A DNA stretch of 64,000 nt from Aggregatilinea lenta. GTDB taxonomy: Bacteria > Chloroflexota > Anaerolineae > Aggregatilineales > Aggregatilineaceae. The position numbers and the translations under genes were made by a program. The stretch covers positions 1,674,001 through 1,738,000 of the forward strand of contig NZ_BFCB01000003.1 in the NCBI RefSeq assembly GCF_003569045.1, read 5' to 3'. A model generated the notes under the pieces. That model was given only the letters and a program-made list of their open reading frames with translations. It made no database searches and was not told where the DNA came from. The number at the start of each line of letters is the position of its first letter. Position 1 is the first letter of the stretch. Positions 1 through 47,658 of the stretch are shown here, in pieces.

Positions 1-3000
1 AGGGAGAGGATACACCCCTCCTCTAGGTTCACGTCTTCTGCGGACTGAGCCGCTTCTAGACCTTGTTTGTAGCATTCTTGAGCATCAAGTAGGTTACTGC
101 GTGAAAAGTAGAAGTTACCAAGGCTGACCAGTACATTGGCTTCATCGCGCCTGAGATAGTAACGACGACTTAACTCACGAGCTTCTTGGAAAGCCGCTAG
201 AGCAGCGTTGTCGTTATTCACTTGCTCATATGCTAGGCCGAGGTTATTAAGGGCTGTAACTGTAAGCTCATGGTCACTTCGCTGCCTCGCAGCAATAACG
301 ATATTCTCCAATAGTCGAATCCCCTCATCGTATTTTTCCTGACGACGTAGTACTTCACCAAGATTATGGGCAACGTTTTCGGCCAAGCGGGCTGGTCCGG
401 TGACTTTTGCGTGGGTCAAAGCGTTTCGTAAATCATTCTCGGCTGCATCAAGCAAATTACATTCTGCAAAGCAATTGCCGCGATTGTATTCTGCGATAGC
501 TAGTAATTCTGGCAACTCCAGGTCTCCGGCCAGTCTGATGCTCTGAGCATAAGCGTCGAAAGCATCTCGGAATCGTCGTCGTTTCTCACAAGTAACGCCA
601 TAATCTATCAACTTAGTCGCCAAGGTTTCTACATCATGTAAATCACTCAGAAGACTTATCTCCCGCTGAAAACAAGCAAAAGCGACGCGATCTCTTTGTA
701 GAACATCAAGATAGATTCTTCCCAGCGTGTTATACACCTGAGCTAACGGCTGAAGTGAGGCGTGTTCCACGAGTCGGTTCTTCAACTGAATCAGTATACG
801 TGTAATTCGCCTTGGATCTGGGGAATCAACAGCAATCAGGTAGCAGTTCACGAGAAAAACAGTGCGGGCTTTCGCATCCCTTAGATTCTCAAAAATGTCG
901 AATCCCTTTTTATAGTACTCTATTGCCCGTTGCTCATTGGAAAGTTTCCAATAGAAGCTTCCGATATCAAAATAGGTAGTGGCGAGCTGTGCTGTATCAT
1001 CTATTCGCTCGTGAATTGCGGCAGCTTCCTCAAAGTACCTAATTGCAGCGTCATAATTGTTTTTTTCTGCGGCAGCAACTCCACGTGCCGTGAGAACCAT
1101 GGTCTGAATGTCTCTAAATCCGTATCGCCCAGCGATCTCGAATGCTTTATCCATCATGTCATTGGAAGCTACTTCTTCCTCCTGATGTGATTTGTGTAGC
1201 CCCAGATTATATGAAAGCTTGGCAATGTCATAGGGTAAGTCTAGCTTTTCAGCAATCGAGTACGCCGCTAGTACATGGTCATCCGCTTTCTGCCACAGTT
1301 CTTGTTCAGCATAGAGATATGCAAAGCCCGCATGCAGAATCATCCGATCGTAGTCTCCATCGGGAATTAGGTCTAGAAGTTCTAGGCCCTGTGACAACAT
1401 TTTTGCAGCTTCAGGATATCGTGCTTCCTGAATATAAAGCGTACCAAGATTGTTATACAGTTGAAGTTGATGTAATTTTGAATCTAGCTGTTTTGCGTTG
1501 GCAAGACCGTTTAAGTAGTAGCGTTCTGCAATCCCCGCATCGATGTTAAGGAAGGCATTCCCCAACCCACGTTGAGCAATAATTACTGCCTCAGTGGCCT
1601 CAAGCTCCTGAGCGATTTGGAGCATTTCATTGTAGTGGGTTTGTGCTGTTTCGTATTTGCGCCAGTGAAAAGCGAACTGGCCTTGAGCGTCCAGTATTCG
1701 CATCCAGTTTTGAGGTGATACTTTATCCGAATCAAAACGATCTAATAGTGTTTTCGCCAGATCGGGGTAATAAAGCATCAGCCCACTATCGTTTAGCTCG
1801 ATAAGTACCTCCGCGGCTTTATTGAGAGCATCGGTTTTGAAGTAGAGGAGAAATGCCTCAAGAACCGTGATGCTGTTGTCAGCATCCTCAAGTAGATAGT
1901 CGGCCAACTTGGTGCGCAGGCTATCCAAGCCATCTGAGTAATTCAAGGTCAGGGTGCGCACTATTTCGTGAATATCATAAAGGTCATCGCCAAGCTGCTC
2001 TATTAAGAACTGTCTGCAAAGATGTGCAAAGATAACTGCTAATTCTTCCGGCGCGAAAATATGTTTGCTGCAATCAAGTAAGTGCGAACGGGAGAAAGGA
2101 AACGGGAGTAAGGATGCAACTAGAAGCACCCGTTTGGCATTTGGCTCGAGATGGTCAAAGATTTCAACGAAAAGATGTTCAACCAACTGCCCTTCTGTTC
2201 GATTGATTAGTTCAGTGAATTCATCTTCGGTATGTCCCATCGCATGTAGGGCGCAGATCCATTCCAAAGCTAATGGAAATCCCTCAAAACGTTCGTGAAT
2301 CGCTTCTACCGCACTTTCATTCAGCACGACTCCCTTAAGCCCGAAATATTCGGCGGTCTCAGAATCGGTCAATCCTCTAAGCTCGATAGTTTTGACATGC
2401 TTTTGTGCTTCATCTAGGCCTGAGTAGAAGATTGGTTTGGTACGACTTGCTAAAATTACCCTGTTACGGGATTGGCGCGACTGGAGTAACTTAAAGAAGC
2501 TGTTGATTCCCGGTTCGGCTTCCGCAACATGGAGGGAGTCGAACAACAGGTAATAATCACTTTCAAGCAATAGGCTTGCCATTAATTCCGCCTGCTGTTG
2601 CAGTGGTAATCGTCCTGTCCTGATCGCAGCAGCGAACTGTTTGGGCAGGGCCTCGCGCTCTTCAAAAAACTGCGCAAGATTCAGTAGGACATCACGGAGC
2701 GAAACAAGCCCTTCCTGAAATTGATAGAAAAAAACCTGCGTGTCCTCTAGTCGCTCCCATAGTTGATGCAAAAATGCTGTCTTACCAATACCTGGAATAC
2801 CAACAATCGCCAGGGTCTGGACCTCACTTAACGACTGAAGTACCTCAAGGAGTGTAGCATCCCTTCCTACAAAGACTTGCCCAGCTTGCGGTTTGTAGGC
2901 GGAAGCCAGAGACAAAGCATTCTTGTTATCCAAAGACACTCGTGCACTCGGAACTCCGAGAGGAAGCATTTCGGGACGCAGACGAGTTGTTTCATTGAAC

Positions 3001-3563
3001 GAAATAGCCGAGTCACGCAACGCTTCGAGTTCCGGTGTGACCAATAGTAGCACTTCGTCATTTGAGTAATGTGCTACTGTCCAGGTAGAAATAACATCTG
3101 TTTCAGAGAGAAATGTTGGCACGACTTCAGCAATAAATGGTTTCCAAAAATAAGCTGGAGATAATGCAACACCAAAGTGAAAACGTATGAAGTTATCGTC
3201 CGCCGATAGGGGGGTTGGCAAGGCTTCTAGGTTTATGTTTATAGGGTAATAGCTCTTTGCCTGCGATTGTAACTCGGGCCCGAAATCAAATATAGTGCGG
3301 CTTCTTTCTTCAGTTCCACTTAGGAACCCTATCCCAAGTGTTGCACTTTTAGTCTGTGTAACATTGATTTCATGAAATGACCGAACCGTTGGAGGCACAG
3401 AAACATTAGGTGCGAAAGACAACTGCAACTGAAGTCGGGAACAACCATGCTTTCGGGCGAGCACGATTTGACCATTCTGTAGCGCTAACTCGCAGGTCAG
3501 GTGCAACTCACAGTTTTCACTCGTGAGTAGCTTGATGCCGACATTGATTAGATTGCTAGCCAT
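1..3563 (-). CDS. STAND-type NTPase with C-terminal TPR array (partial, runs off left edge)
   Basis: Reading frame on the minus strand from an ATG at 3563, open without a stop for about 1187 codons to the window edge, so the C terminus is missing. Residues 1 to about 240 form an N-terminal region of no recognised family. A P-loop, GIPGIGKTAF, lies near residue 257 and a Walker-B-like stretch YYLLFDSLH near 338, followed by an arginine-rich sensor and winged-helix-like region (SRTKPIF, then EGFPLALEW). From about residue 590 to the edge there are tandem 34-residue TPR-like units (for example LYNNLGTLYIQEARYPEAAK and LGLAYEQVNNDNAALAAFQE). This order is typical of STAND signalling ATPases, which act as switches in regulation or defence. 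No good Shine-Dalgarno precedes the ATG. The frame stays open upstream to a TTG at 3614, so the start is uncertain. The gene is clearly more AT-rich than its neighbours, suggesting transfer. The effector or partner is unknown. Confidence 0.85.
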   Translation of the reverse strand, partial: MASNLINVGIKLLTSENCELHLTCELALQNGQIVLARKHGCSRLQLQLSFAPNVSVPPTVRSFHEINVTQTKSATLGIGFLSGTEERSRTIFDFGPELQSQAKSYYPININLEALPTPLSADDNFIRFHFGVALSPAYFWKPFIAEVVPTFLSETDVISTWTVAHYSNDEVLLLVTPELEALRDSAISFNETTRLRPEMLPLGVPSARVSLDNKNALSLASAYKPQAGQVFVGRDATLLEVLQSLSEVQTLAIVGIPGIGKTAFLHQLWERLEDTQVFFYQFQEGLVSLRDVLLNLAQFFEEREALPKQFAAAIRTGRLPLQQQAELMASLLLESDYYLLFDSLHVAEAEPGINSFFKLLQSRQSRNRVILASRTKPIFYSGLDEAQKHVKTIELRGLTDSETAEYFGLKGVVLNESAVEAIHERFEGFPLALEWICALHAMGHTEDEFTELINRTEGQLVEHLFVEIFDHLEPNAKRVLLVASLLPFPFSRSHLLDCSKHIFAPEELAVIFAHLCRQFLIEQLGDDLYDIHEIVRTLTLNYSDGLDSLRTKLADYLLEDADNSITVLEAFLLYFKTDALNKAAEVLIELNDSGLMLYYPDLAKTLLDRFDSDKVSPQNWMRILDAQGQFAFHWRKYETAQTHYNEMLQIAQELEATEAVIIAQRGLGNAFLNIDAGIAERYYLNGLANAKQLDSKLHQLQLYNNLGTLYIQEARYPEAAKMLSQGLELLDLIPDGDYDRMILHAGFAYLYAEQELWQKADDHVLAAYSIAEKLDLPYDIAKLSYNLGLHKSHQEEEVASNDMMDKAFEIAGRYGFRDIQTMVLTARGVAAAEKNNYDAAIRYFEEAAAIHERIDDTAQLATTYFDIGSFYWKLSNEQRAIEYYKKGFDIFENLRDAKARTVFLVNCYLIAVDSPDPRRITRILIQLKNRLVEHASLQPLAQVYNTLGRIYLDVLQRDRVAFACFQREISLLSDLHDVETLATKLIDYGVTCEKRRRFRDAFDAYAQSIRLAGDLELPELLAIAEYNRGNCFAECNLLDAAENDLRNALTHAKVTGPARLAENVAHNLGEVLRRQEKYDEGIRLLENIVIAARQRSDHELTVTALNNLGLAYEQVNNDNAALAAFQEARELSRRYYLRRDEANVLVSLGNFYFSRSNLLDAQECYKQGLEAAQSAEDVNLEEGCILS

Positions 3564-3924
3564 ATGTACGTGTCCAAGCTGGCACCAAGACAAGCGATCG
3601 TATTTGTGTCCCAAATCAATCCAGTAATATCATAACAGATAAAAGGACACAACTAGCTACCACTATCCGAGGCATGACACCACCCAGTTTGTGAGCGCCG
3701 TTACAGCATTTGCAGACTAATACAATAGGCGGAAGCAGGCAGTGCGCGGGAGGTTCCCTGGGAAGGACCCACGCCCAGCATCGGCGTTAGCTGGGCGCGG
3801 CGATAATGAGATGCGTCGCAGGTGTGCATATTGTCGCGCTTGAGTTGGTGCCCACGTTGCGGGCGCTGTTCGGGGAGTTCTGCCGGGAATTGGGTGTGAC
3901 GATCCGCTAGAGCGGCACGACCTG
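3564..3924. other. Intergenic stretch with possible gene debris
   Basis: About 360 bases between the STAND gene and the next gene. The part to about 3670 is AT-rich like the STAND gene; from about 3730 it turns GC-rich. A short plus-strand frame at about 3808-3909 (from an ATG, ending TAG, including HIVALELVPTLRALFGEF) looks protein-like in composition but is too short and isolated to call, and may be the tail of a decayed gene. No terminator or promoter was convincing. Confidence 0.3.
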
Positions 3925-4227
3925 CTATTTCCTGCGCGGGAAACGCCCGCTGGCCGCAAGCCAACACGCCTGTAACCAGAGTGCCTCGGCGTCATCTAGA
4001 ATGACGTTGGGGCACTTGCCATCTTTCACGGGGCGGGGCCTGCCCCAGCCGAGATCGCCGTGATAAAGCGTGCCAGTATTGGCGCTGTAATCGTAGATGA
4101 AGATGAGCTGCTCGCCCTGGGCGTTCTCAAAGTAGCTGTGATAGCGGTTTGGGGTGTTGGCGTCGATGTTGGGTGGGTCGCCACAGGCCGCAACGTGCTT
4201 GTTGTTGACCTCAAAAAGAGGGCCCAT
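3925..4227 (-). CDS. Conserved hypothetical protein, ~100 aa
   Basis: A 100-residue soluble protein with no signal peptide or membrane segment. It is rich in aromatic residues and has a compact N-terminal part (MGPLFEVNNKHVAACGDPP) and a C-terminal part with DDAEALWLQACWLAA. A strong Shine-Dalgarno (GGAGG, 5 bases before ATG) supports the start. I believe similar short proteins occur in other Chloroflexota, but that is recollection and no function is known. It lies directly downstream of tRNA-Asp on the same strand and may be co-transcribed. Codon use is GC-rich, unlike the STAND gene beyond it. Confidence 0.7.
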   Translation of the reverse strand: MGPLFEVNNKHVAACGDPPNIDANTPNRYHSYFENAQGEQLIFIYDYSANTGTLYHGDLGWGRPRPVKDGKCPNVILDDAEALWLQACWLAASGRFPRRK

Positions 4228-4290: not shown

Positions 4291-4363
4291 CGGGAGCGAC
4301 GGGATTCGAACCCGCGATCTTCGGCTTGACAGGCCGACATGTTAACCGCTACACTACGCCCCC
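4291..4363 (-). tRNA. trnD: tRNA-Asp (GTC)
   Basis: 73-nt cloverleaf. Acceptor stem GGGGGCG pairs with CGCTCCC with one G-U pair. The D arm is TAGTGTAGCGGTTAACATG. Anticodon stem TCGGC / GCCGA encloses loop CTGTCAA with anticodon GTC. The T arm GCGGG-TTCGAAT-CCCGT is canonical. CCA is not encoded. The only tRNA seen in the window. Confidence 0.96.
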
Positions 4364-34593: not shown

Positions 34594-36055
<1,462 letters not shown>

Positions 36056-36063
<8 letters not shown>

Positions 36064-36790
36064 GAACGTCGAGGTCCACGCCGACAACTCGGCGCTGGCC
36101 GAGGCCGTCGCCGGGCAGATCATCACGCAAGCGTGGGGCGCGATCGCGGCGCGGGCGCGCTTCAGCATCGGGCTGTCCGGGGGATCGACGCCGCGCGGGC
36201 TGTTCGAGATGCTGGCCCAGAAGCCGTATGCGGCCCGCCTGGACTGGAGCAAGGTACACGTCTTCTGGGGCGACGAGCGCTGCGTGCCGCCCGACGATCC
36301 CGACAGCAACTACGGCATGGCGCGCGAGGCACTGCTGAAGCACGTCCCGCTGCCGGACGACAACGTGCACCGTGTACCGGGCGAACTGCCTCCGGCGGAG
36401 GCGGCGGCCCAGTACGAGCAAATGCTGCGGCGCTTCTTCGACGAGCAGAAGCCGCGCTTCGACCTGCTGCTGCAAGGCATGGGCGATGACGGACACACCG
36501 CATCGCTGTTCCCACACACAAAGGCTCTGCGCGAGCGCAAGCGCTGGGTGATTCCCAATTACGTGCCGAGGCTGGACGCGTGGCGCATCACGCTGACCGT
36601 CACCGCGATCAACGCGGCGCGCAGCGTGATCTTCATGGTCAGCGGGCCGGGTAAAGCGCAGGCGCTGCACGACGTGTTGGAAGGGCCGCACCAGCCGGAG
36701 ACGCTGCCATCGCAGTTCGTCGCACCGCCCAACGGGCAGGTCACGTGGATGGTAGACGAGGCGGCGGCCTCTCTCCTGCGGCGGCACTAA
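36056..36790 (+). CDS. pgl: 6-phosphogluconolactonase
   Basis: 244 residues from the ATG at 36056, inside the end of zwf; a start further upstream would be fully embedded in zwf. Family motifs: FSIGLSGGSTPRGLFEML near residue 40, FWGDERCVPPDDPDSNYGMA near 80, and LLQGMGDDGHTASLFPHT near 140. Hydrolyses the lactone formed by zwf to 6-phosphogluconate. Same operon as zwf. A repeat-derived terminator follows. Confidence 0.95.
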
Positions 36791-36814: not shown

Positions 36815-36898
36815 CGTAGGGGCGATGCTTGCATCGCCCTTTTTTGTGTGGTTTTAACGCGGAGAAAAGCAAGCGCGGGTTGCAAACCCGCCCCTACG
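36815..36898. repeat. Dispersed palindromic repeat, long form (copy 2)
   Basis: Outer arms CGTAGGGGC at 36815 and GCCCCTACG ending 36898. Inner hairpins GGGCGATGC-TT-GCATCGCCC and GCGGGTTGCAAACCCGC. Sits between pgl and the hydrogenase operon, which converge here. Confidence 0.75.
36820..36845 (+). terminator. Intrinsic terminator within the repeat, after pgl
   Basis: GGGCGATGC / GCATCGCCC with a 2-base centre (effectively a 4-base loop), followed by six T residues. A good terminator for the methyltransferase-zwf-pgl transcripts, supplied by the left half of the repeat element. Confidence 0.8.
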
Positions 36899-36920: not shown

Positions 36921-37436
36921 CTAATCGATGAGCGCGTCCGCCAGCCCGGCGATCACGCGCTCCATGACGGCCTGCATGCGGGGCGTCAGCGGCGCGTCGA
37001 TCTGGTTGGCGAACGGTTGCATGCCGATCAGCGCGACGTGGCAGCCGAACTCGGACACCATGTAGCGTGCAAGCACGTGTGGCGGCAGGGAGTGCGTCGA
37101 GGCGCTGACGCCGGTCGTCTGCTCCCAGTCGAGCCAGCGCACCGTCCCTGGCGGCTCACCCATTTGCGCCGCATCGACCATCAGCACCAGATCCGGCCCA
37201 AAGCGGCGCAGCGCGCCGGTCGTGTTTTCCGGCGCAGGACCCGCATCGATCACCAACAGCCGGTCCAGTCCGGCGGCGCGCTCCATCAGCGCCCGCGCTA
37301 TGACCGGTCCGGCTGCGTCGTCTCCGTTCAGTTCGTGCCCCATGCCGATCACGGCGACACGGGGCACGCGGTTGTTATTCTGAGCCAGCCGGTTCAGCGT
37401 CTGGATCAGCGCGCTGTGCCAGGACGGCTGCGACAT
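36921..37436 (-). CDS. [NiFe] hydrogenase maturation endopeptidase
   Basis: 171 residues from the ATG at 37436 (GGGGAT about 8 bases upstream); other in-frame starts lie 9 and 15 bases further up. HyaD/HycI-type protease: VAVIGMGHELNGDDAAGPVI with a nickel-binding acidic residue, VIDAGPAPENT with a second Asp, and STHSLPPHVLARY with the His ligand. It removes the C-terminal tail of the large subunit after nickel insertion. Last gene of the hydrogenase operon. Its start lies inside the ferredoxin-like gene, overlapping by 62 bases. Confidence 0.9.
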   Translation of the reverse strand: MSQPSWHSALIQTLNRLAQNNNRVPRVAVIGMGHELNGDDAAGPVIARALMERAAGLDRLLVIDAGPAPENTTGALRRFGPDLVLMVDAAQMGEPPGTVRWLDWEQTTGVSASTHSLPPHVLARYMVSEFGCHVALIGMQPFANQIDAPLTPRMQAVMERVIAGLADALID

Positions 37437-37800
37437 GTTCTTCATCCCCAAAGGTCAGCGTCATCGGCCCGCGGCTCAACCCGGCCAGCTCCCATTCGTC
37501 GCTGGACATCGAGAGGCAGTTCTTGTTGCAACTCACCACGCACTGCGCGCAGAACGTGCAGCGATCCACATGGTAGCGAAAAACGAACTGCTTGGCTTTC
37601 TTGTCGATGGTGATCACTTCGATGGCATCGGCGGGGCAGTCCTTGCTGCACAACTGGCAGCCGGTACACTCCGTCGAGTCCCAGTGCAGCCGCCCGCGCA
37701 GGCGAGGTGGGGCGTCGAGCCGCACAAAGGGGTAGCGCTCTGTGACGGGCTTCTTCACCAGCCCGTCGATGGCGTCTTTCCACATTCCGGCGAGCTTCAT
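37375..37800 (-). CDS. Hydrogenase ferredoxin-like subunit (NuoI-like, 2x[4Fe-4S])
   Basis: 141 residues. Two cluster motifs: C45-T-G-C-Q-L-C-S-K-D-C55-P and C81-T-F-C-A-Q-C-V-V-S-C91. Carries electrons from an external donor, most likely ferredoxin, to the small subunit. The start codon overlaps the stop of the NuoH-like gene by 4 bases (ATGA). The C-terminal 20 residues are encoded inside the start of the endopeptidase gene. Confidence 0.93.
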   Translation of the reverse strand: MKLAGMWKDAIDGLVKKPVTERYPFVRLDAPPRLRGRLHWDSTECTGCQLCSKDCPADAIEVITIDKKAKQFVFRYHVDRCTFCAQCVVSCNKNCLSMSSDEWELAGLSRGPMTLTFGDEEHVAAVLAQRADPDAEPAGSE

Positions 37801-38720
37801 GCGACGACCCCTTCCCAAATGACCATGACCAGGAACTGGACCAGCACCAGCAGCGTGCCGTAGCGCCACCACAGCCCGACGGTCTGATCGATGCGCAAGC
37901 GCGCCAGCAGCGATTGCAGCCCGGCGAGCAGGCCCAGCATCAGCAGCGTTTTGACGAAGAAGAAAATCGGGTTGGCGACGCCGCCCAGGTAGAAGGCCGC
38001 GACCAGCGTCAGCCCGACGATCAGTTCCACGCCTTTGCCCAGGTGGAACATCGCCAGCCCGCGCCCGCTATACTCAGTCAGCGCGCCCGCGACGATCTCC
38101 GTCTCGGCTTCCGGCGCGTCGAAGGGCGGCAGCTCCAGCTTGCCCATCAGGCCGATCAGCGCCACGACGAAGCCGATCGGCTGCGTGGCGATCAGCCAGT
38201 GGTGCTCGGCGTAACCCGCAATCTCGCTGATCTGCCAGCTCTTGGCGACGATGGCCGGGCCGAGCAGCGCCAGCAAAAACGGGGCTTCGTACGAGAACAA
38301 CTGCGTGAGCGTGCGCGTCGCGCCGATCAGCGAGAAGCGGTCGAGCGTGTTCGCGCCCGCCAGCCCGGTACACAGCGTCAGCAGGCTGAGCATGTATACC
38401 GCGACGATCAGGTCGCCGCTGAAGCTTTCCGCCGGACGCAGGCCGAAGATCGGCACGTAGAGCGCCGCCGTTAGCGCACCCGCCAGCGCGATCACCGGCA
38501 GCACGACGAACAGACGGGGGTCTACGCCGTCCGGCACGATTTCCTCTTTCGCCAGCAGCTTGATGTTGTCGGCGAGGGGCTGGAACCAGCGTGGCCCGAC
38601 TCGGTTGTGGAAACGGGCGACCAACTTGCGGTCCACCCACTCGTACGCCATCCCGGCAAAGATCAGGCACAGTCCGCCGGGAAAGATCAGGATGGCGAGA
38701 ATCGCTTCTAGAGTTTTCAT
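37797..38720 (-). CDS. Hydrogenase membrane subunit, NuoH-like
   Basis: 307 residues and about eight transmembrane helices. Conserved complex I subunit H/1 sequence: ERKxxxRxxxRxGP-like segment seen as VDRKLVARFHNRVGPRW, then LADNIKLLAKEEIVPDG, and FDAPEAETEIVAGALTEYSG. Forms the foot of the ion channel next to the catalytic module. Both ends overlap neighbours by 4 bases. Confidence 0.92.
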   Translation of the reverse strand: MKTLEAILAILIFPGGLCLIFAGMAYEWVDRKLVARFHNRVGPRWFQPLADNIKLLAKEEIVPDGVDPRLFVVLPVIALAGALTAALYVPIFGLRPAESFSGDLIVAVYMLSLLTLCTGLAGANTLDRFSLIGATRTLTQLFSYEAPFLLALLGPAIVAKSWQISEIAGYAEHHWLIATQPIGFVVALIGLMGKLELPPFDAPEAETEIVAGALTEYSGRGLAMFHLGKGVELIVGLTLVAAFYLGGVANPIFFFVKTLLMLGLLAGLQSLLARLRIDQTVGLWWRYGTLLVLVQFLVMVIWEGVVA

Positions 38721-39931
38721 CGATAGTACTCGATTCCGTACTGGCGCAGGGCTTCCCACGACATCGTCTTGTCGTTGCCGCGCGGGTCGTTGATCGTGAA
38801 CATGCGGTCGTTGCACGAGAAGCACGGGTCGATGCCACTGATGATCATCGGGATGTCAGCCAATTGGTGGCCGACCGCCGACGCCGCCACCGAGGCCATC
38901 GCGGGCAGGGTGGGCGTGCGGACCTTGACGCGCTCCGGCGTGTCGGTGCCGTTGCTCTTGATGAAGTACAGCAGCTCGCCACGCGGCGCTTCGGCTCGGC
39001 TGATGGTTTCGCCGGGCTTGATGCGGCGCGGCATGCGCGTCGTCAGCTCGCCGTCGGGCATCTGGTCGAGGATCGCGCGGATGACGCGGTAGCACTCGAA
39101 CAGTTCCTTGACGCGCACCACGCAGCGGGCCAGCAGGTCACCCGCCGGATCGATCACCATTGTAACCGGGAACTCCGGGTAGGCAGCGTAGGGCGAATCC
39201 ACGCGCACGTCGCGGGCCACACCCGACGCACGCGCCGTCGGCCCGACGATGCCCAGGCTTTCGGTCTGTTCCTGGCTCATGAGGCCGATGCCCTGCGTGC
39301 GGCGCAGGAACATCGCGTCGGTGGTGACCACTTCGAGGTAGTGCTGCGTGCGCTCTTCGAGGAAGTCCATGCCGGTGCGGATCGACGCGTCGATCTCCGG
39401 CGTGATGTCGCATTTGACGCCGCCCAGCACGTTTGCCGAGTAGTTGACGCGGTTGCCGGTGATGCCTTCCAGCAGGTTCATGACCGTTTCGCGGTCGCGC
39501 CAAGTATACATGAACAGCATGTCGAACCCGGCCTCGTGCGCGGCCACGCCGAGCCACAGCAGGTGGCTGTGGATGCGCTCCATCTCCGCGATTAGCGTGC
39601 GGATGGCGCGGGCGCGCGGCGGGACCTCGACTTCGGCCAGCTTCTCCGCGCCCTGGCAAAAGACCGTGGCGTGGATGTGCGAGCAGATGCCGCAGATGCG
39701 CTCGACGAGGTACATGTTCTGGACGTAGGTGCGGCTCTCGGCGCCTTTTTCGATGCCGCGATGCACGTAGCCCAGGCGCACCGTGGCGCTGGTGACGATC
39801 TCGCCGTCCACCGTGAACGCGAAGTGCCCCGGTTCTTTGAGCGCCGGGTGCTGCGGGCCAATCGGGATGATGAACTTGTCACCGTCCCGCTTCACTTCCA
39901 GGGATTGGAGTTGAATGATGTTGGGTTCCAT
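38717..39931 (-). CDS. Group 4 [NiFe] hydrogenase large (catalytic) subunit
   Basis: 404 residues. Overall like NuoD (GPQHPALKEPGHFAFTV; RGIEKGAESRTY), but with the two nickel-binding pairs that NuoD has lost: C80-G-I-C83 in RICGICSHIHA and C370-F-S-C373 in DPCFSCNDR. After Arg376 there is a 28-residue tail ending YGIEYYR, matching the tail that HycI-type proteases remove after metal insertion; the protease gene is in the same operon. It makes or oxidises H2. Classification as group 4 follows from its complex-I-like partners. This is an established family, though the exact subgroup cannot be given by eye. Confidence 0.95.
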   Translation of the reverse strand: MEPNIIQLQSLEVKRDGDKFIIPIGPQHPALKEPGHFAFTVDGEIVTSATVRLGYVHRGIEKGAESRTYVQNMYLVERICGICSHIHATVFCQGAEKLAEVEVPPRARAIRTLIAEMERIHSHLLWLGVAAHEAGFDMLFMYTWRDRETVMNLLEGITGNRVNYSANVLGGVKCDITPEIDASIRTGMDFLEERTQHYLEVVTTDAMFLRRTQGIGLMSQEQTESLGIVGPTARASGVARDVRVDSPYAAYPEFPVTMVIDPAGDLLARCVVRVKELFECYRVIRAILDQMPDGELTTRMPRRIKPGETISRAEAPRGELLYFIKSNGTDTPERVKVRTPTLPAMASVAASAVGHQLADIPMIISGIDPCFSCNDRMFTINDPRGNDKTMSWEALRQYGIEYYR

Positions 39932-39933
39932 CG

Positions 39934-40410
39934 CTACGCCTCGTGAAGTTGTGTCATGTCAAAGTCCTTACGCAGCGGGTAGACGCCGTCCGGCCAGTCA
40001 TCGGGCAGGAAGAGGCGGTCGGTGTTGGGCGTGTTGGTGACCGTCACGCCGAACATCTCCATCAGCTCGCGCTCATAAAACGTCACCGACTGGATCAGCC
40101 CGTACAGGCTCGGCACGGTGGCCGCGTCGCGCGGGACCGGGACGCGCAGCGTGAGCACTGCCGCGCCGTCGCAGAAGTGGTAGAGCACCTCGATGATCCC
40201 GGCTTCCGCACCCTGGTCCAGCCCGGTGATGGCCGACAGGTAGCCCCACTTGGCGTTGTGCAGTGCGGCTACCGCGTCCAGCAGATCCCCGGCGTCGATC
40301 ACCACGTCGAGGCGGTTGGCTTCTGGCTCGGCGGCCTCTTTGGTGCACGGCGCGACCAGCGCGCGTCCGGCATTGAGCAGGTCTGTGTTGAGCAAGTTGG
40401 CGGCGGTCAT
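39934..40410 (-). CDS. Hydrogenase subunit, NuoC-like (30 kDa)
   Basis: 158 residues from the ATG at 40410, which overlaps the small-subunit stop by 4 bases. Family segments: LHNAKWGYLSAITGLDQG, VLYHFCDGAAVLTLRVPV, then the signature YERELMEMFGVTVTN and FLPDDWPDGVYPLRKDF. Connects catalytic and electron-transfer subunits. The gap to the large subunit gene is 2 bases. Confidence 0.93.
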   Translation of the reverse strand: MTAANLLNTDLLNAGRALVAPCTKEAAEPEANRLDVVIDAGDLLDAVAALHNAKWGYLSAITGLDQGAEAGIIEVLYHFCDGAAVLTLRVPVPRDAATVPSLYGLIQSVTFYERELMEMFGVTVTNTPNTDRLFLPDDWPDGVYPLRKDFDMTQLHEA

Positions 40411-40931
40411 GCGGTGGCTTCCTCCTCCGGCAGACCGGGATCGGCCACCGGGACTTTTTCGCCCGCCTTGACGGACGCTTGCAGCGCGGTTAGCAGCTTC
40501 ACCACGCCGTCGATGATCGCTTCGGGGCGGGGCGGGCAGCCAGGCACGTAGGCGTCCACCGGGATCACCTGATCGATGCCACCCATGATGTTGTAGCAGC
40601 CGTGGAATGCGCCGCCCGTCAGGGCGCACGAACCGACCGCCACCACGAACTTAGGGTCGGGCATCTGCTCGTAGATGCGGATGAGGCGCTCGCGGGCCTG
40701 CCGTGTGACCGGCCCGGTGCAGATCAACACATCCGCGTGACGCGGGCTGCCTTGCAACTTCACGCCGAAGCGTTCCATGTCGTAGCGTGGAGTGAGCGTG
40801 GCGAGGATCTCGATGTCGCAGCCGTTGCACGAGCCGCTGTTGAAATGGATCGCCCACGGCGAGTTCACGCGCGCCCAGGTTTTGACCTGATCCAGCGCGG
40901 TCTGCCAGGATTTATCCAGACTGAGGGTCAT
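40407..40931 (-). CDS. Group 4 [NiFe] hydrogenase small subunit, NuoB-like
   Basis: 174 residues. Ligands of the proximal [4Fe-4S] cluster: C35-N-G-C38-D, C102 in GSCALTGGAF and C132 in VPGCPPRPEAI. Passes electrons to the nickel site. The residues between C38 and C102 fit NuoB-type proteins (ILATLTPRYDMERFGV). GGAGG five bases before the start. First gene of a tightly overlapping block C-D-H-I. Confidence 0.95.
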   Translation of the reverse strand: MTLSLDKSWQTALDQVKTWARVNSPWAIHFNSGSCNGCDIEILATLTPRYDMERFGVKLQGSPRHADVLICTGPVTRQARERLIRIYEQMPDPKFVVAVGSCALTGGAFHGCYNIMGGIDQVIPVDAYVPGCPPRPEAIIDGVVKLLTALQASVKAGEKVPVADPGLPEEEATA

Positions 40932-40963
40932 TGTTTCCTCCTGTTAGGGGTCCGGTGCGGGCG

Positions 40964-41278
40964 CTAGCCCAGGATCAGCGCGATCAGGGCCAGCATCAGC
41001 CCGACCAGATAGATCCCCGTGACGGACGAAAGGTCACCGCTGCCTAACACGAGCACGCCCAGGTGCAGCACGGCGAAAAACAGCGCGACGACGAAGAATG
41101 GCCGGTAGCCGGGCACTGCAGGGCGGGTGGGCGACGATTCGCCTGCCGAGTAGGTGCTCGTCTTGGCGGGCGATTGGCTGCTCGCCCCGGCCAGGACGCG
41201 TCCGAAACCGGAGAGAATTGCGACCAGCGCAATGTAGAACACAAAGGCAACTGGCGGAGCCAGAAGGATTTCATCCAT
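40964..41278 (-). CDS. Small membrane subunit, NuoA-like
   Basis: 104 residues with three transmembrane helices. A hydrophilic loop (PAKTSTYSAGESSPTRP) followed by YRPFFVVALFFAVLHLGVLV resembles the YECG...FY loop and second helix of NuoA, but the family cysteine and following acidic motif are altered. Placed between the antiporter-like and catalytic genes, 32 bases before the small subunit. Assignment is by topology and position. Confidence 0.7.
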   Translation of the reverse strand: MDEILLAPPVAFVFYIALVAILSGFGRVLAGASSQSPAKTSTYSAGESSPTRPAVPGYRPFFVVALFFAVLHLGVLVLGSGDLSSVTGIYLVGLMLALIALILG

Positions 41279-41379
41279 AGAACGACCTCGTAAACGTGCT
41301 TCTAATTGCTAGCGACCGATAAGTTGGCTAAAAGGGCTGTCTTGGCGATGCAAGACGGCGACGACAGCGAAACCCTCCC

Positions 41380-42879
41380 TTAGAATCCGAATGATGCGAT
41401 CAGCGCGTGGCCTGCCGGGCCGCTCAGCCAGTTGAGCAGGTTGGGCCACACGCCGACCGCGACAATCGCCACGCCGAGCACGGCCAGCGGCACGTTCATC
41501 AGCGCGGGCAGTGGTCCGCCTGCCAGCACCGTGTCAGAGGGCTTCTGGCGGTAGAGGGCGTTGACCAGCGGTGCGTAGTAGGCCAGCGACAGCACGCTGT
41601 TGAGCGCGGCGAACAGCACCAGCGCCTCGATCCAGCCGTTTTTCGTCTCGAACCCCGCGACGAAGATCTGCCACTTGGACATGAACCCCGCCAGCGGGGG
41701 CAGCCCGGCCAAACCGAGCACCGCCACGCTAAGACCGAGCGCCGCCCAGGGGTATTTCTGCGCCGCGCCGCTGAGATCGGAAATCGTCAGCGGGCCGTGA
41801 TCGCCCATCGAGGCGTGCAGCGCGTAGAGCAGCGCGCCTGCCGCCAGGAAGGCCAGCCCCTTCATCATGCCGTGCGTCAGCATGTGGAAAAAGCCGCCCT
41901 CAGCTCCTGCCGCCTGCTGCGCGTAGAGCGCGATGCCCAGGCCAAGCAGCATGTACCCGACGTGGCTCAGGCTGGAGTAGGCCAGCAGGCGCTTGACCTG
42001 CGACTGGCGCAGGGCCATCAGGTTGCCCAACAGCATGTTGAACGCGCCGAAGACCATCAGCAGCTCGCCCCATGTCGCGCCGATTCCCGCCAGCGGCGAG
42101 ATCGCGCGCAGCAGCGCGACGAGGCCCGCCTCGATTACCACGCCGGACAGCATGGCGCTGATACCACTCGGCGCCTGCGAATGCGCGTCCGGCAGCCAGG
42201 TGTGCATCGGGACCAGCGCGGCTTTGACGCCGAAGCCGATCAGGAACAGCCCGCCCGCTGCCAGCAGCGGGACCGAGCTTTCGGGCGCAGCGGCGCGGAT
42301 CGCGGTCAGGTCGAGCGTGCCGGTTTGCGACAGCACCAGCGCGATGCCTAGCAGCACGAACACCGAGCCGACCGCGCTCTGCACGAGGTACTTCACGCCC
42401 GCTTCGAGCGAAGTAGGCTGCTCGTGGTAAAACGCGACCAGCAGGTACGACGCGATGGCCATCGCTTCGAACCACACCCACAGGTTGAACAGATCCGATG
42501 CGCAGCCGAGGCCCATCATTATGCCGACCATCGCCACCAGCGAAGCGTAGTACTTTTCTTGCCCGGCGTCGGCGGCCATGTAGGGGCCGGAGTAGAACAC
42601 GACGACCGTGCCCAGACCGAGCGACAGCGCCGCCAGCAACAGGCCGAGGTCGTCCAGACGCAGCGATACCGTGCCGAGCGTGTAGGTTTGTACGCCGCCC
42701 GCATCCAGGTCGGAGGCGGCCAGCGCGAAGGGAATCCAGGTAAGGCCGAGCGCGATCAATGCCGCCCAGCGCGTCAGCGCTTCACCATCCGGTTTGACCA
42801 GCCGCCCGATCAGGTAAATGACGGGCGCGGCCAGCAAAGGCAGCGCGATCATCCAGGTAAAAGCAGTCATGTCAGCCAT
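41380..42879 (-). CDS. Proton-translocating membrane subunit, NuoN/MrpD-like
   Basis: 499 residues and about fourteen transmembrane helices, an antiporter-like subunit of complex I and related hydrogenases. Conserved parts: FEAMAIASYLLVAFYHEQPT with the key glutamate, AALVPMHTWLPDAHSQAPS, and the lysine-containing LRQSQVKRLLAYSSLSHVGY. Moves ions across the membrane in step with electron transfer. Six bases follow the NuoL-like gene. Confidence 0.93.
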   Translation of the reverse strand: MADMTAFTWMIALPLLAAPVIYLIGRLVKPDGEALTRWAALIALGLTWIPFALAASDLDAGGVQTYTLGTVSLRLDDLGLLLAALSLGLGTVVVFYSGPYMAADAGQEKYYASLVAMVGIMMGLGCASDLFNLWVWFEAMAIASYLLVAFYHEQPTSLEAGVKYLVQSAVGSVFVLLGIALVLSQTGTLDLTAIRAAAPESSVPLLAAGGLFLIGFGVKAALVPMHTWLPDAHSQAPSGISAMLSGVVIEAGLVALLRAISPLAGIGATWGELLMVFGAFNMLLGNLMALRQSQVKRLLAYSSLSHVGYMLLGLGIALYAQQAAGAEGGFFHMLTHGMMKGLAFLAAGALLYALHASMGDHGPLTISDLSGAAQKYPWAALGLSVAVLGLAGLPPLAGFMSKWQIFVAGFETKNGWIEALVLFAALNSVLSLAYYAPLVNALYRQKPSDTVLAGGPLPALMNVPLAVLGVAIVAVGVWPNLLNWLSGPAGHALIASFGF

Positions 42880-42885
42880 GATCCG

Positions 42886-44634
42886 TTACGCCCCCAGTGC
42901 GAGAATGACGAGCACGACGATGAGCGCGCCGACGATGCCCGCGACGTTCCAGTTGACCGATCCGGTTTGGAATGCGCGCAGCGATTCTCCGGCGGTGGTC
43001 GCCCACTGAACGACGCGACGGTTGATCCACTCGAAGCCGAAGTCGGCAGCGGCGGCGTCACCGATGGGACGCAGGGACGTCACGAGGCCGCCCAGCGCGT
43101 CACGGTACTGCCACGCCAGCAGACCGAGCGCGACCACGCCCAGCGCGAGGTACGTCGCGGGAGCGGCGATCACGTCGCCGAGCAGGGCGGTGCCCGCCTC
43201 GACGTGCAGATGGTGGAACGGCAGCGTATTTTCCAGCAGCTCCCCGAACAGCCCGGCCAGCAGCCAGGTCGTCGCGGTGCCCGCCGCCAGGATGCCCGTC
43301 GAGAGGCGCATCATCTGCCCGGCGGGGTGCACGTGGAGCTTGGCGCGCGGCGTGCCGTAGAAGACCAGCCACACCATGCGGAACGTATACAGCGCCGTGA
43401 TACCCGCGCCGACCAACATGCCGATATACGCCCAGATGGGACCGTCGTGCAGGCCACCTTCCAGGATGAGTTCCTTGCTCCAGAAGCCGTTGAGCACCGG
43501 CAGGCCCGCCAACGCCAGCGCGCCGACCACGAACACGTTGCGGATGAACGGCATCTTTTTGCCCAGGCCGCCCATCTCGCGCATGTCGCGCGTGCCGACG
43601 CTGTGGATCACCGCACCCGCGCTGAGGAACAACAGCGCCTTGAACACAGCGTGACTCAGCAGGTGGAACTGGCTGGCGAAGATGTCACCTACGCCCACGG
43701 CGTAAACCATGTAACCGAGCTGGCTGATGGTCGAGTAGGCCAGGACGCGCTTGAGATCGGTGGCGACCAGCGCCATCAGCGCGGCCATCAGGGCGGACAC
43801 CAGCCCGACCAGCGTTACCGCCGTGGTCCAGCCGCTCACGCCCTCGAAGGCCGGGTAGAAGCGCGCCAGCACGTACACGCCTGCATTGACCATCGTCGCG
43901 GCGTGGATCAGCGCGCTGACAGGCGTCGGCGCTTCCATCGCGCCGGGCAGCCACGTGTGGAACGGGACCTGCGCAGACTTGGCGGCGGCGGCGATCAGGA
44001 AGCCGAAGGCCAGCGCGGCCAGAACGCCGGAAGGTAACTCGTCGGCACGGCTGAGCAGCGTGCTGATCTGGTAGTCGCCCAGGTAGGCGTACACGATCAG
44101 CCCGCCGACCAGCATCCCCACGCCGCCGAACGAGGTGATGACCAGGGCTTTGATACCGCCCTCGACCGCTTTGGGATCGTCATTGTAGAAGGAAATAAGG
44201 GCATAAGAGGTGAGTGCAGTGATTTCCCAAAAAACAAACAGCAGAAGGATACTGTCGGTGAGCACCAACCCGACCATCGCGCCGATGAACAGCAGCACAA
44301 AGCTGTAGAAACGTCCCAACTGTTTTTCACCGTGCATGTAATCCACGGAGAAGATGACTGCGAGACAGCCGATGACCGTTGCCACGGCTGCCAGGAAGAC
44401 GCCCAGTCCGTCGGGCACGAAGGTGAAATCTCCGAACACGCTGCCGACCTCGATCCGCAGCGCAACCGTGTCGCCTGCCGAGGGGATCAGCAGCAGGGCC
44501 GCGAGGCCCGCCAGCACGCTGAAGATCACCGCGAGACGGTGCTGCTGATCCGGGCGGTCGTCGCCGGTCAGCCAGACCGCCAGCGCGCCGAGCCAGGGCA
44601 GCCCGATTGTGAGCACGATGAGCCAGTCTGTCAT
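42886..44634 (-). CDS. Proton-translocating membrane subunit, NuoL/MrpA-like
   Basis: 582 residues, about sixteen transmembrane helices. Motifs: FWEITALTSYALISFYNDDP with the conserved glutamate, SAQVPFHTWLPGAMEAPTPVSAL, and TDLKRVLAYSTISQLGYM with the catalytic lysine. It lacks obvious room for the long lateral helix of full NuoL, as is common in group 4 hydrogenases. AAGGA ribosome site before ATG. Confidence 0.92.
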   Translation of the reverse strand: MTDWLIVLTIGLPWLGALAVWLTGDDRPDQQHRLAVIFSVLAGLAALLLIPSAGDTVALRIEVGSVFGDFTFVPDGLGVFLAAVATVIGCLAVIFSVDYMHGEKQLGRFYSFVLLFIGAMVGLVLTDSILLLFVFWEITALTSYALISFYNDDPKAVEGGIKALVITSFGGVGMLVGGLIVYAYLGDYQISTLLSRADELPSGVLAALAFGFLIAAAAKSAQVPFHTWLPGAMEAPTPVSALIHAATMVNAGVYVLARFYPAFEGVSGWTTAVTLVGLVSALMAALMALVATDLKRVLAYSTISQLGYMVYAVGVGDIFASQFHLLSHAVFKALLFLSAGAVIHSVGTRDMREMGGLGKKMPFIRNVFVVGALALAGLPVLNGFWSKELILEGGLHDGPIWAYIGMLVGAGITALYTFRMVWLVFYGTPRAKLHVHPAGQMMRLSTGILAAGTATTWLLAGLFGELLENTLPFHHLHVEAGTALLGDVIAAPATYLALGVVALGLLAWQYRDALGGLVTSLRPIGDAAAADFGFEWINRRVVQWATTAGESLRAFQTGSVNWNVAGIVGALIVVLVILALGA

Positions 44635-44638
44635 CGGG

Positions 44639-44944
44639 CTATCCTTTCAACGTAGAGAGTGCATCGACGTCGAGCGTGCCGAGCAGCCGCTTGGTCTGAA
44701 CCGCCAGCGCCAGCCCAACCACCCCGACGACCGTATCCGCGACGATGACCGTGATCGCGAGGCTCTGGCTCAGGCCCACCTGGCCGCTGGCATCGCCTGC
44801 CGCGACGAGCGCGATCAGCGCGCCTTTGACCAGGATTTGCAGCGCCACGACGACCTTGATCAGGTTGCGCGTGATCAGCAGCCCGTACAGGCCGACCCCG
44901 ACGATGGCGATGACGCCGACCACGAGGATCTCAAGCGTGGACAT
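44639..44944 (-). CDS. NuoK/MrpC-like small membrane subunit
   Basis: 101 residues with three transmembrane helices. Seen: GLYGLLITRNLIKVVVALQI, the usual loop, and QSLAITVIVADTVVGVVGLA with an Asp/Glu-bearing helix of the NuoK type. Its start lies 14 bases inside the preceding NuoJ-like gene, its end 4 bases before NuoL-like. Confidence 0.88.
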   Translation of the reverse strand: MSTLEILVVGVIAIVGVGLYGLLITRNLIKVVVALQILVKGALIALVAAGDASGQVGLSQSLAITVIVADTVVGVVGLALAVQTKRLLGTLDVDALSTLKG

Positions 44945-45527
44945 CGGCAGCCTCCGGTTTGATTTCGGCTCCGCTGAGGTCCAGCGCCAGGGCGGGCTGC
45001 GGCGTGTGGCCGTTCTTCGCCGTGTTCGGCTGGACGGTGGTCGCCGCCGGAACGCGCCGCATCGCAGGCACCGCCGCTTCGCTGAGCAGGCCGAGCACGC
45101 CCAGCACGCCGGTGAAGATCAGTACGACCTGCACCAGCACGTCCAGCGCGCGGTCTTCCCACAGCACGGCAGACAGGTCGCCGCTGGCGGATACCGCTTC
45201 GATCCCGTCCAGGGGCAGGATCATCCAGCCGAGCAGCGCCGCGAAGATCAGCAGCAGCCCCACCGCCAGCCGGACCGGGATGCGCGGCGCGGCTTGCATG
45301 GTGTCGTCGCCCGCGATGCTGATCGCGAACACGAACAGGACCGTGACCAGCCCTGCACCGACGCTCAGCTCGACCACGGCAACCTGATGCGCGCCGAGTC
45401 GGTAAAGAATGATTGCGGCCAGCGCGCTGACCCCGGCGAGCCACAGCGCACTCGAAATAAGTTTTTGCGCCCGGACGGCCATGAGCGCGCATACAGCGGC
45501 TCCAGCGACCAGGAAGGCATATAACAT
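44931..45527 (-). CDS. NuoJ/DUF4040-like membrane subunit, first gene of the hydrogenase operon
   Basis: 198 residues from the ATG at 45527, which has GGAGGG five bases upstream; the frame continues upstream but is unlikely to be coding. About five transmembrane helices. The VAVVELSVGAGLVTVLFVFA segment with acidic residue fits NuoJ and the DUF4040/MbhD part of Mrp-type complexes. A polar tail (about 165-198) is unusual. No clear promoter was found in the 251-base upstream region. Confidence 0.82.
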   Translation of the reverse strand: MLYAFLVAGAAVCALMAVRAQKLISSALWLAGVSALAAIILYRLGAHQVAVVELSVGAGLVTVLFVFAISIAGDDTMQAAPRIPVRLAVGLLLIFAALLGWMILPLDGIEAVSASGDLSAVLWEDRALDVLVQVVLIFTGVLGVLGLLSEAAVPAMRRVPAATTVQPNTAKNGHTPQPALALDLSGAEIKPEAADVHA

Positions 45528-45778
45528 TGTTCCCTCCTTCACAAACGAGTTGACGTTATCATAACAGGATATGCGTAGGCGTCCATAGTGCAGGAAATCA
45601 CAAGCGCTTACGATAATGCTCCCCGCTAGCGGGGCTGGTGCGGCACTTGGCGGCATCCGCGTGCCGGATCGGGCTGGTAGGCAGACGTCGCGGCGGATTT
45701 TGTCGGGTGGTTGCAGAAGCCTTTATTCGTCACTAAACTAGTCTCGCACTCGCATACAGCACAGGAGGGCTTCAGAAG

Positions 45779-46594
45779 ATGTTTTCGCGGATGAAACGAG
45801 CGGTTGTGCCTTTACTCTTGGCGGCAGCATTCGTGCTCTCGCTGACGCCGGTATTTGCTGCTGGGCCGGTCTACCCCGACCTGCCGGACCTGGAGGGGCA
45901 GGAGATTCGCATCGCGGTTGAGAACCTGTACACCCCCTTCCAGTTTGAGGAAGCCACTACAGGCGAAGTAATGGGCTTTGAGTATGATCTGATGGCGGAG
46001 CTGTGCGCGCGGATCAACTGCACGCCGGTGTACGAAAACACGAGCTGGGACGTCATGATCCCGTCGGTGGGCGAAGGCCAGTACGACATGGGCATGACGG
46101 GGATCAGCATCTACGAAGAACGCAAGGAGATCGTCGACTTCAGCGATCCCTACATCAACCTGGACCAGTACCTGCTGGTGCAGGCGGACGAAGATCGCTT
46201 CACGAACATCGACGAGTTCGTGGCGAACGACGACCTGATCCTGGGTGTGCAGCAGGGCACGGCGGGCTTCTTCGTGACGCAGGACGTGGTGCCCGACGAG
46301 CGGCGCTCGGTCTACAACGAGTTCGGCGCGCTGGTGCAGGCGCTGGTCAACGGCGACATCGACGCGATGCCGGCGGACGTATCGGCGGCGGCGGGCTTCA
46401 TCAGCGCCACGGCGGACGCGGTCAAGCTGGTGGGCGACCCGATCTCGAAAGACGAGATGGGCTTCATCTTCCCCAAGGGCAGCGAGCTGGTCGACCCGGT
46501 CAACGCCGCGTTGGCCTCGATGAAGGAAGACGGCTTCCTCGATTACATCTACTATAAGTGGTTCATCACGTTCCAACCGGCGTCCCAGGAATAA
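45779..46594 (+). CDS. Amino-acid ABC transporter substrate-binding protein
   Basis: 271 residues. A signal peptide (about 1-27, ending VFA) is followed by an SBP_bac_3 domain: [61 protein letters not shown] and [10 protein letters not shown]. It captures amino acids outside the membrane. AGGAGGG nine bases before ATG. A hairpin follows before the permease gene, which could raise its expression over the permease. Confidence 0.93.
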
Positions 46595-46618
46595 GCCAGC
46601 CGGAACGAGCATCAGGTG

Positions 46619-46650
46619 GGAGAGGCGCTTCGGGGCCTCTCCTGTTTATT
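46619..46650 (+). terminator. Partial terminator between binding protein and permease
   Basis: Stem GGAGAGGC / GCCTCTCC with an 8-base loop, followed by TGTTTATT. Probably a leaky terminator that keeps the binding protein in excess over the permease. Confidence 0.65.
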
Positions 46651-46740
46651 CTATGCAAATCGATTCTGCGCAAGACGAGCCACCGGGATTAACGCGCGGT
46701 GGCCTCGTTCCGTCTTCAGGTAACCAGTGGAAAACCCTGC

Positions 46741-47658
<918 letters not shown>

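Follow-up and report, generated by a model that had tools for sequence, protein, structure and literature searches.

The membrane-bound hydrogenase (MBH) of Pyrococcus furiosus (HydDB 4d; structure 6cfw) has one large antiporter subunit, and in the formate hydrogenlyase of Escherichia coli (Hyc/Hyf; HydDB 4a; structure 7z0s) subunit C is fused to subunit D. The available part of PMC7886697 gives MBH a Na+ module, MbhABCF, and describes Hfo of the Bathyarchaeia (HydDB 4g) as an enzyme of 11 subunits in Nuo/Fpo gene order, with a NuoA-like subunit, a complex I-type membrane arm and intact NiFe motifs, and with no NuoEFG/FpoFO. A complex I-like group 4 hydrogenase of Asgard archaea (Atabeyarchaeia/Freyarchaeia) has two antiporters and a lateral helix, features absent from other structurally characterised group 4 respiratory hydrogenases, and hyaD is among its associated genes (PMC11291895, part of the text). 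Here we describe a run of eleven genes from Aggregatilinea lenta (Chloroflexota), located on the minus strand of a 64,000-nucleotide stretch of contig NZ_BFCB01000003.1 (the window), which by every sequence feature tested encodes a group 4 (energy-converting) [NiFe] hydrogenase. We predict that the complex couples H2 chemistry to ion pumping, and we read it as a membrane-bound enzyme that makes H2 from reduced ferredoxin and is matured by a HycI-type protease; the probability of this reading we put at about 0.75.

The genes lie head to tail, from 45527 to 36921, in the order J-K-L-N-A-B-C-D-H-I, followed by the protease gene. They overlap or are separated by at most 32 bases, with the single exception of a 101-base gap, and even this widest gap leaves no room within the run for small genes of the Mrp E/F/G/B type. 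Reading frames and Pfam show no NuoE, NuoF or NuoG in the run; the Pfam matches that it does contain are to HycI, Fer4, NADHdh, the 49-kDa and NiFe hydrogenase families, the 30-kDa and 20-kDa families, two antiporter-type families and NuoK. Twenty relatives (L075-L094) were read from end to end, and 17 of them share the complete set of eleven genes and its order, so the run is more than a chance arrangement. In the other three, C is fused to D (L090), the run ends at J together with the contig (L093) or the cluster is broken (L083). An initial annotation, made from the letters alone, had placed a hydrogenase operon at these coordinates and on this strand, with a HyaD/HycI-type protease as its last gene and a gene content unlike Ech or HycE, and on all of these points it was right. 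What it called a complete antiporter-like module is complete only in having two antiporter-like subunits; the three of complex I and the Mrp E/F/G/B-type genes are not there.

The catalytic subunit D carries two cysteine pairs, C80/C83 in RICGICSHIH and C370/C373 in DPCFSCNDR, and continues for 28 residues past R376, just as the initial annotation had listed. CGICSHIH fits the L1 pattern of [NiFe] hydrogenases, C[GS][ILV]C[AGNS]xxH, and DPCFSCNDR fits the L2 pattern, [DE][PL]Cx[AGST]Cx[DE][RL] (PMC7886697). Within the clade of close relatives to which D belongs (the window clade), R78, C80, C83, H87, D368, C370, C373, D375 and R376 are invariant in 28 of 28 sequences. Against the PDB, D matches MbhL of P. 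furiosus (6cfw) with 274 bits, HycE (7z0s) with 259 bits and Nqo4 of complex I with 206 bits; its four cysteines align with those of MbhL and HycE, as an assignment to L1 and L2 implies, and the Nqo4 chain of Thermus thermophilus is without them. The small subunit B behaves in the same way, matching MbhJ with 188 bits, HycG with 146 and complex I with 143. B shares CNGC with MbhJ, whereas two adjacent cysteines stand at this place in the aligned chain of complex I, and the four cluster cysteines of B are invariant (27/27). Searched with the NuoD family, the source genome yields two additional proteins of NuoD type, both lacking the [NiFe] cysteines; these complex I-type proteins are L001 (G000:C4) and L002 (G000:C2), one of them fused to NuoC.

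Trees of the large subunit place D with the group 4 hydrogenases and apart from complex I, in agreement with the group given by the initial annotation. The named group 4 references were HycE, HyfG, MbhL and four plasmid-borne sequences (two from Azospirillum, one from Butyrivibrio and E. coli Hyf). In a careful tree of 58 rows, whose bootstrap had not settled and from which L081, L086, L097, L110, L137, L139, L141, L143, L151, L154 and L156 were left out, the window clade forms one group of 22 rows (100/99), while HycE/HyfG with their kin (100/100) and complex I (100/100) form separate groups. A quick tree of 69 rows recovers the clade with 28 rows and a Shimodaira-Hasegawa-like approximate likelihood ratio test (SH-aLRT) support of 100. 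The separation from HycE/HyfG takes the enzyme out of class 4a. It is likewise not 4d, since it has no MbhABCF genes and MbhL pairs with L108 (100/96), apart from the window clade, although the MbhL branch is long (1.12) and the deep order open. We expect, and only expect, that the enzyme would be classed as HydDB 4g, a loose class of unknown function, whose members the available part of PMC7886697 describes as structurally heterogeneous and, without exception, biochemically uncharacterised.

The comparison with the described systems can now be made subunit by subunit. MBH is the best solved match for B, D, N and J; unlike MBH, the run has no small genes of the MbhABCF kind and has a second, NuoL-like antiporter. 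Hyc/Hyf, the second-best match for D and B, shares the tail of D and HycI with the run, but besides the fusion of C to D it differs in that nothing in the hyc stretch matches A, J or K. With respiratory complex I the enzyme shares homologues of A, H, J, K and L and the NuoL fold; it differs in having the NiFe ligands, CNGC in B and two antiporters versus three, and in having no NuoEFG in the run. Unlike Hfo, as far as the available text describes it (PMC7886697), the window enzyme has 10 subunits in another order, one antiporter fewer, and HycI in addition. The Asgard enzyme is archaeal and has genes for a group 3 hydrogenase, Hdr and ATP synthase in the same block, and its lateral helix is described as "full-length", whereas the helix of L falls ~23 residues short of its E. 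coli NuoL counterpart, a comparison by description (PMC11291895, in part). The plan of two pumps and a lateral helix is thus already known from Asgard archaea. For bacteria we did not find the window's subunit set described: the openly licensed literature yielded no description of this lineage (nothing in the parts of PMC12361115, PMC5459899 and PMC6472368 available), with prior mention elsewhere possible. The suggestion that the subgroup is new or little described therefore survives for the bacterial lineage, and gives way for the plan, which has known relatives in the Asgard two-antiporter enzyme and Hfo. Mrp-like subunits have been reported for further bacterial hydrogenases of group 4 (PMC6349859, in part), as have Mrp-linked 4g enzymes in Cloacimonadota and Omnitrophota (PMC8542988, in part).

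Judged by sequence, the subunits form a mosaic: B, D and N are nearest to P. furiosus MBH, L is NuoL-like, and A resembles only NuoA/ND3, and weakly. The family profile of J matches MbhD (E 5.4e-12) ahead of NuoJ (E 2e-5), and K matches NuoK with 39 bits and MbhG with 31.5. Of the two antiporter-like subunits, N matches MbhH (217 bits), P. furiosus 6u8y_H (154), MrpD (139) and E. coli NuoN (125), and L matches Nqo12, that is NuoL (272), MrpA (252) and MbhH (185). E137, K219, K332 and K387 of L and E138, K219, K340 and K402 of N are invariant in 23 of 23 sequences; from work on complex I, we take these Glu and Lys to be the pump residues. Two histidines of L vary, being kept in 16/23 and 22/23. 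An AlphaFold model of L, built with 21 sequences, reaches a mean predicted local distance difference test (pLDDT) of 84.6 and a predicted template modelling score (pTM) of 0.89. Foldseek matches it to mycobacterial NuoL (E 3.3e-29), and VIA superposes it on E. coli NuoL with Z 50.2 and a root-mean-square deviation of 2.6 over 529 residues (model residues 2-557). The next match, at Z 46.1, is to MrpA from the Mrp antiporter, so L could also be of MrpA-like origin.

The last membrane helix of L (residues 555-582) is modelled at pLDDT <50. Ahead of this helix, a block of 23 residues from the lateral-helix stretch of E. coli NuoL is missing in L; the same 23 residues are missing in two of three other aligned relatives, and L091 lacks 16. 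The shorter lateral helix may have been cut to bridge two pumps, not three. In the family of A, PF00507 is matched at E<=1 by 20 of 22 proteins, the lowest E being 5.4e-5, and all 21 PDB matches of the family profile at E<=10 are of ND3/NuoA type (best E 2.4e-4), which weakly suggests that A is a remote NuoA/ND3 relative. The profile has no match to MbhI at E<=10, though A and MbhI may be homologous. A model of A is weak (pLDDT 78, pTM 0.46); in VIA, 9 of its 12 rows are complex I/NDH (Z 4.7-5.7), with an unrelated helical protein first (Z 6.3), and we rejected the structure as proof that A is NuoA.

The tail of D leads to the eleventh gene. Its product matches PF01750 with 52.5 bits (cut-off 23) and the hycI equivalog TIGR00142 with 95 bits, under the cut-off of 119, and in an alignment it retains the DD, D and H positions of E. 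coli HycI, which presumably bind nickel. To compare tail and protease across relatives, we counted the group 4 loci whose sequence extends 2300 bases or more beyond the 3' end of D, 56 in all. L108, L138, L143 and L156, which fall short of this length, and the two complex I rows were left out. HycI was scored absent when the fetched stretch gave no same-strand phmmer match to the window HycI at E 1e-4. Tail and HycI agree in 54 of the 56 loci, both being present in 24 (20 in the clade) and both absent in 30 (4 in the clade). The exceptions are the broken cluster L083, with a tail and no HycI match, and L141, with HycI and a 7-residue tail. Mapped on a tree of 61 rows, with the HycI state of L108, L138, L143 and L156 left out, the two agree in 58 rows, E. 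coli Hyf, which shows no HycI in its fetched stretch, being the third exception. The tail changes 6 times. Independent changes of tail and HycI never go in opposite directions; there are only 5-6 of them (sign test, median p 0.25), so we rejected this coupling as statistical proof. The joint pattern fits HycI acting on the tail of D. L140 and L142 keep the ten subunit genes and have neither HycI nor tail. At L141:5992-7101 the 7-residue tail is followed by repeat-like, stop-rich sequence with HycI still downstream, which is perhaps tail loss in progress.

We propose that the enzyme would work as follows. Electrons from reduced ferredoxin would enter at the two clusters of I and travel by way of the B cluster to the [NiFe] centre of D, where they would reduce protons to H2. 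H, A, J and K would relay the energy set free by this reaction to the two antiporter-like subunits, and these, N and L, would expel H+ (or Na+) from the cell, with the lateral helix of L clasping N. During maturation, Hyp proteins would build the metal centre into the tailed D, after which HycI would remove the tail. Sequences and models show which subunits are present, their metal-ligand and cluster motifs, the pump residues, the conservation of gene order, the joint occurrence of tail and protease and the NuoL-like fold of L; the donor, the direction towards H2, the ion species, the stoichiometry and the cleavage site we infer. Ferredoxin is a plausible donor, because I has two clusters (Fer4 matches, with eight cysteines invariant in 27/27) and the run has no other input module, NuoEFG being absent from it. 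The source genome (G000) also has four POR_N matches, one of them in a 1207-residue reading frame of the pyruvate:ferredoxin oxidoreductase (POR) type. To this extent the ferredoxin-linked H2 evolution that had been supposed from the letters is plausible. HypD, the one Hyp protein searched for, is found in the source genome (E 1.7e-150).

Several observations weigh against this reading or narrow it. (i) In a first sample of 61 genomes, the source genome and 60 relatives, POR_N matches occur in all 61, so POR does not point to this hydrogenase, and we rejected its co-occurrence as a sign of the donor. (ii) HypD is present in 26 of the 28 genomes with the clade and also in 23 of the 33 without it, and the source genome has another [NiFe] family match, which also needs Hyp; HypD is therefore not specific to the window enzyme. 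(iii) The two clade genomes with no HypD match are G012 (73% complete) and G040, which at 97% complete may have a missing contig or an unusual maturation. (iv) With a heme-copper oxidase encoded in the source genome, a role in fermentation alone cannot be taken for granted. (v) A has no Pfam match at E 0.001, PF00507 being reached at E 0.0016 and 19.1 bits against a cut-off of 23.3, and Foldseek with the weak model of A returned 7 rows, none significant and 3 from complex I/NDH entries. The NuoA-like label of the initial annotation thus holds as a remote likeness of the family profile and falls short at the family cut-off.

The same enzyme might run in reverse, with an ion gradient driving H2 oxidation to supply reduced ferredoxin for biosynthesis, a role proposed for the Hfo of Bathyarchaeia (PMC7886697). 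Reversibility is possible in group 4 enzymes, and the heme-copper oxidase could supply the gradient; however, POR-type enzymes already provide reduced ferredoxin, and neither the run nor its flanks hold a hint of carbon fixation, whose genes were not searched for. We consider operation in this direction unlikely, and retain H2 production from ferredoxin.

The relation to complex I is a separate question. According to the initial annotation, the enzyme is close to the ancestor of complex I, and this the trees do not bear out: the careful tree leaves the order among the window, HycE/HyfG, MbhL and complex I groups open, and an approximately unbiased (AU) test of complex I as neighbour of the window clade neither favours nor rejects it (p 0.192; log-likelihood 7.27 below the best tree). 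The sequences with an A gene (window type, the DLC type described below and L006) lie on one side of a branch with support of 73/90 in the careful large-subunit tree, 98/93 in a concatenated B+D+H+I tree and 96 (SH-aLRT) in the quick tree, and in the concatenated tree complex I joins between this group and the rest. It is therefore conceivable that among living hydrogenases the window clade stands closest to complex I and is not one of several parallel complex I-like hydrogenases, and its NuoA-like and NuoL-like subunits would suit that position. Yet this is not the best tree, complex I enters the concatenated tree as a single long row (3.26 in all), the sequences of B, D and N lie closer to MBH than to complex I, and the trees include no Hfo or Asgard sequences; we find such a position unlikely. 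A broader proposal we offer tentatively, at somewhat less than even odds: that these genes represent a widespread bacterial lineage of ten-subunit energy-converting hydrogenases between MBH and complex I. In it, the electron arm and the proximal pump would resemble MBH and would carry one subunit of NuoA type and a distal pump of NuoL type; the lateral helix of this distal pump would be shortened by about the width of one pump (~23 residues, ~35 angstrom) because there are only two pumps to tie. Such a lineage would be a living model of a two-pump stage in the growth of complex I.

Two further alternatives concern what the hydrogenase module does. A working hydrogenase could be fed not by free ferredoxin but by a separate donor module encoded elsewhere, oxidising formate, NAD(P)H or an aldehyde. 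Such neighbourhoods exist: on Azospirillum plasmid pAB510b (L115:261-9074) a tail-less group 4 hydrogenase lies directly 3' of an aldehyde ferredoxin oxidoreductase gene, and at L098:1548-12030, in the same phylum, a molybdopterin-oxidoreductase-like frame adjoins a group 4 hydrogenase with tail and HycI. The window run has no such gene, and the unit of synteny in the relatives closes with I and HycI, so we give this arrangement only a slim chance and keep ferredoxin as the presumed donor. That the run encodes a hydrogenase-related complex (Ehr) or a short complex I lacking [NiFe] chemistry, as might be thought from the top matches of D (Complex1_49kDa in Pfam; NuoD, below cut-off, in NCBIfam), is very improbable given four ligands invariant in 28/28, CNGC in B, HycI encoded together with its presumed tail substrate, and the position of D apart from complex I in the trees.

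Members of the window clade occur in 28 of the 61 genomes of the first sample at >=62% identity, partial copies included, and in 41 of 396 genomes of the class at >=64%; among the 396, another 25 have cousins at 45-55% and 3 a gene at 39-40%. Nine of 400 genomes drawn across the phylum carry the clade, and all nine belong to the same class. A scan of genome contigs with one query sequence added a single relative, L006, at 53% identity on a record labelled "Bacillota bacterium", and 72,556 plasmid records gave no match at >=60%. The broken cluster at L083:5408-8232 keeps only B, C, D (with tail) and I, with no H, antiporter or HycI match within 16 kb; it is either a degraded cluster or a soluble remnant. 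C and D are fused in one frame, as in HycE and NuoCD, in L090 (8506-10176), L130, L131, L133, L136 and L144. A set of cousins from the same class (L095, L097, L144, L146, L148, L150, L096, L147, L152 and L153) has no tail, an L2 motif of the form DLC..C, an A gene and no HycI match. In each of the first six, three antiporter-like reading frames were recognised, and these six look more like the 11-subunit Hfo plan.

The coordinates of all features are collected in Table 1. A GGAGGG precedes the ATG of J at 45527. The promoter-like match upstream of J has 9 of 12 consensus matches and TG ahead of its second hexamer, but sites of this type barely exceed shuffled sequence in the region (3 found versus 1.0 expected), and the same is true of terminator-like hairpins (7 versus 5.3).

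Table 1. Features of the hydrogenase run and its borders, in window coordinates
Feature	Position	Strand	Basis
Promoter-like match ~30 bases upstream of J, just outside the run	45558..45585	-	consensus scan only
J: NuoJ-like, MbhD-type (DUF4040) domain plus extra C-terminal part	44931..45527	-	profile
K: NuoK/MrpC-like	44639..44944	-	PF00420, E 8.5e-15
L: NuoL-like distal antiporter with lateral helix	42886..44634	-	similarity and model
N: MbhH/MrpD-like proximal antiporter	41380..42879	-	similarity
A: NuoA-like three-helix membrane protein	40964..41278	-	family profile against PDB
B: small subunit, one FeS cluster (CNGC...C...C)	40407..40931	-	similarity
C: NuoC-like	39934..40410	-	PF00329, E 1e-26
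D: [NiFe] large (catalytic) subunit, 404 aa	38717..39931	-	similarity
L1 motif RICGICSHIH of D (C80, C83)	39671..39700	-	
L2 motif DPCFSCNDR of D (C370, C373)	38804..38830	-	
28-residue C-terminal tail of D, presumed HycI substrate	38720..38803	-	cleavage inferred
H: NuoH/MbhM-like membrane anchor	37797..38720	-	PF00146, E 2.1e-70
I: ferredoxin-like subunit, two 4Fe-4S motifs	37375..37800	-	Fer4 matches
HycI-type maturation protease, start codon uncertain	36921..37436	-	PF01750, E 5.6e-14
Terminator-like hairpin 3' of HycI, just outside the run	36875..36891	-	consensus scan only

The flanks (34594-36790 and 45779-47658), whose genes are named from a reading of their sequences, hold glucose-6-phosphate dehydrogenase and 6-phosphogluconolactonase-like genes on one side and an amino-acid ATP-binding cassette (ABC) transporter-like pair on the other. 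The zwf/pgl neighbours were considered as part of the system and rejected, being present in 4 of 22 other clade loci (L075, L076, L077 and L094), all of one family. At the far end of the window, positions 1-4000 have a G+C content of 46-48% against 59-69% in the remainder, and a tRNA-Asp gene lies at 4291-4363; these 4000 bases are possibly foreign DNA.

It is a long-standing question how the addition of pumps turned hydrogenase-like ancestors into complex I. A bacterial hydrogenase that combines two pumps with a NuoA-like subunit and a lateral helix of reduced length makes two parts of this question testable, the number of ions moved per H2 and the role of the lateral helix. The clade members with neither tail nor protease allow tail-dependent maturation to be compared between otherwise similar enzymes. 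If the enzyme does make H2 from reduced ferredoxin with ion pumping, a tenth of the sampled genomes of the class (41/396) can dispose of excess electrons on ferredoxin as H2 and build up an ion gradient in doing so.

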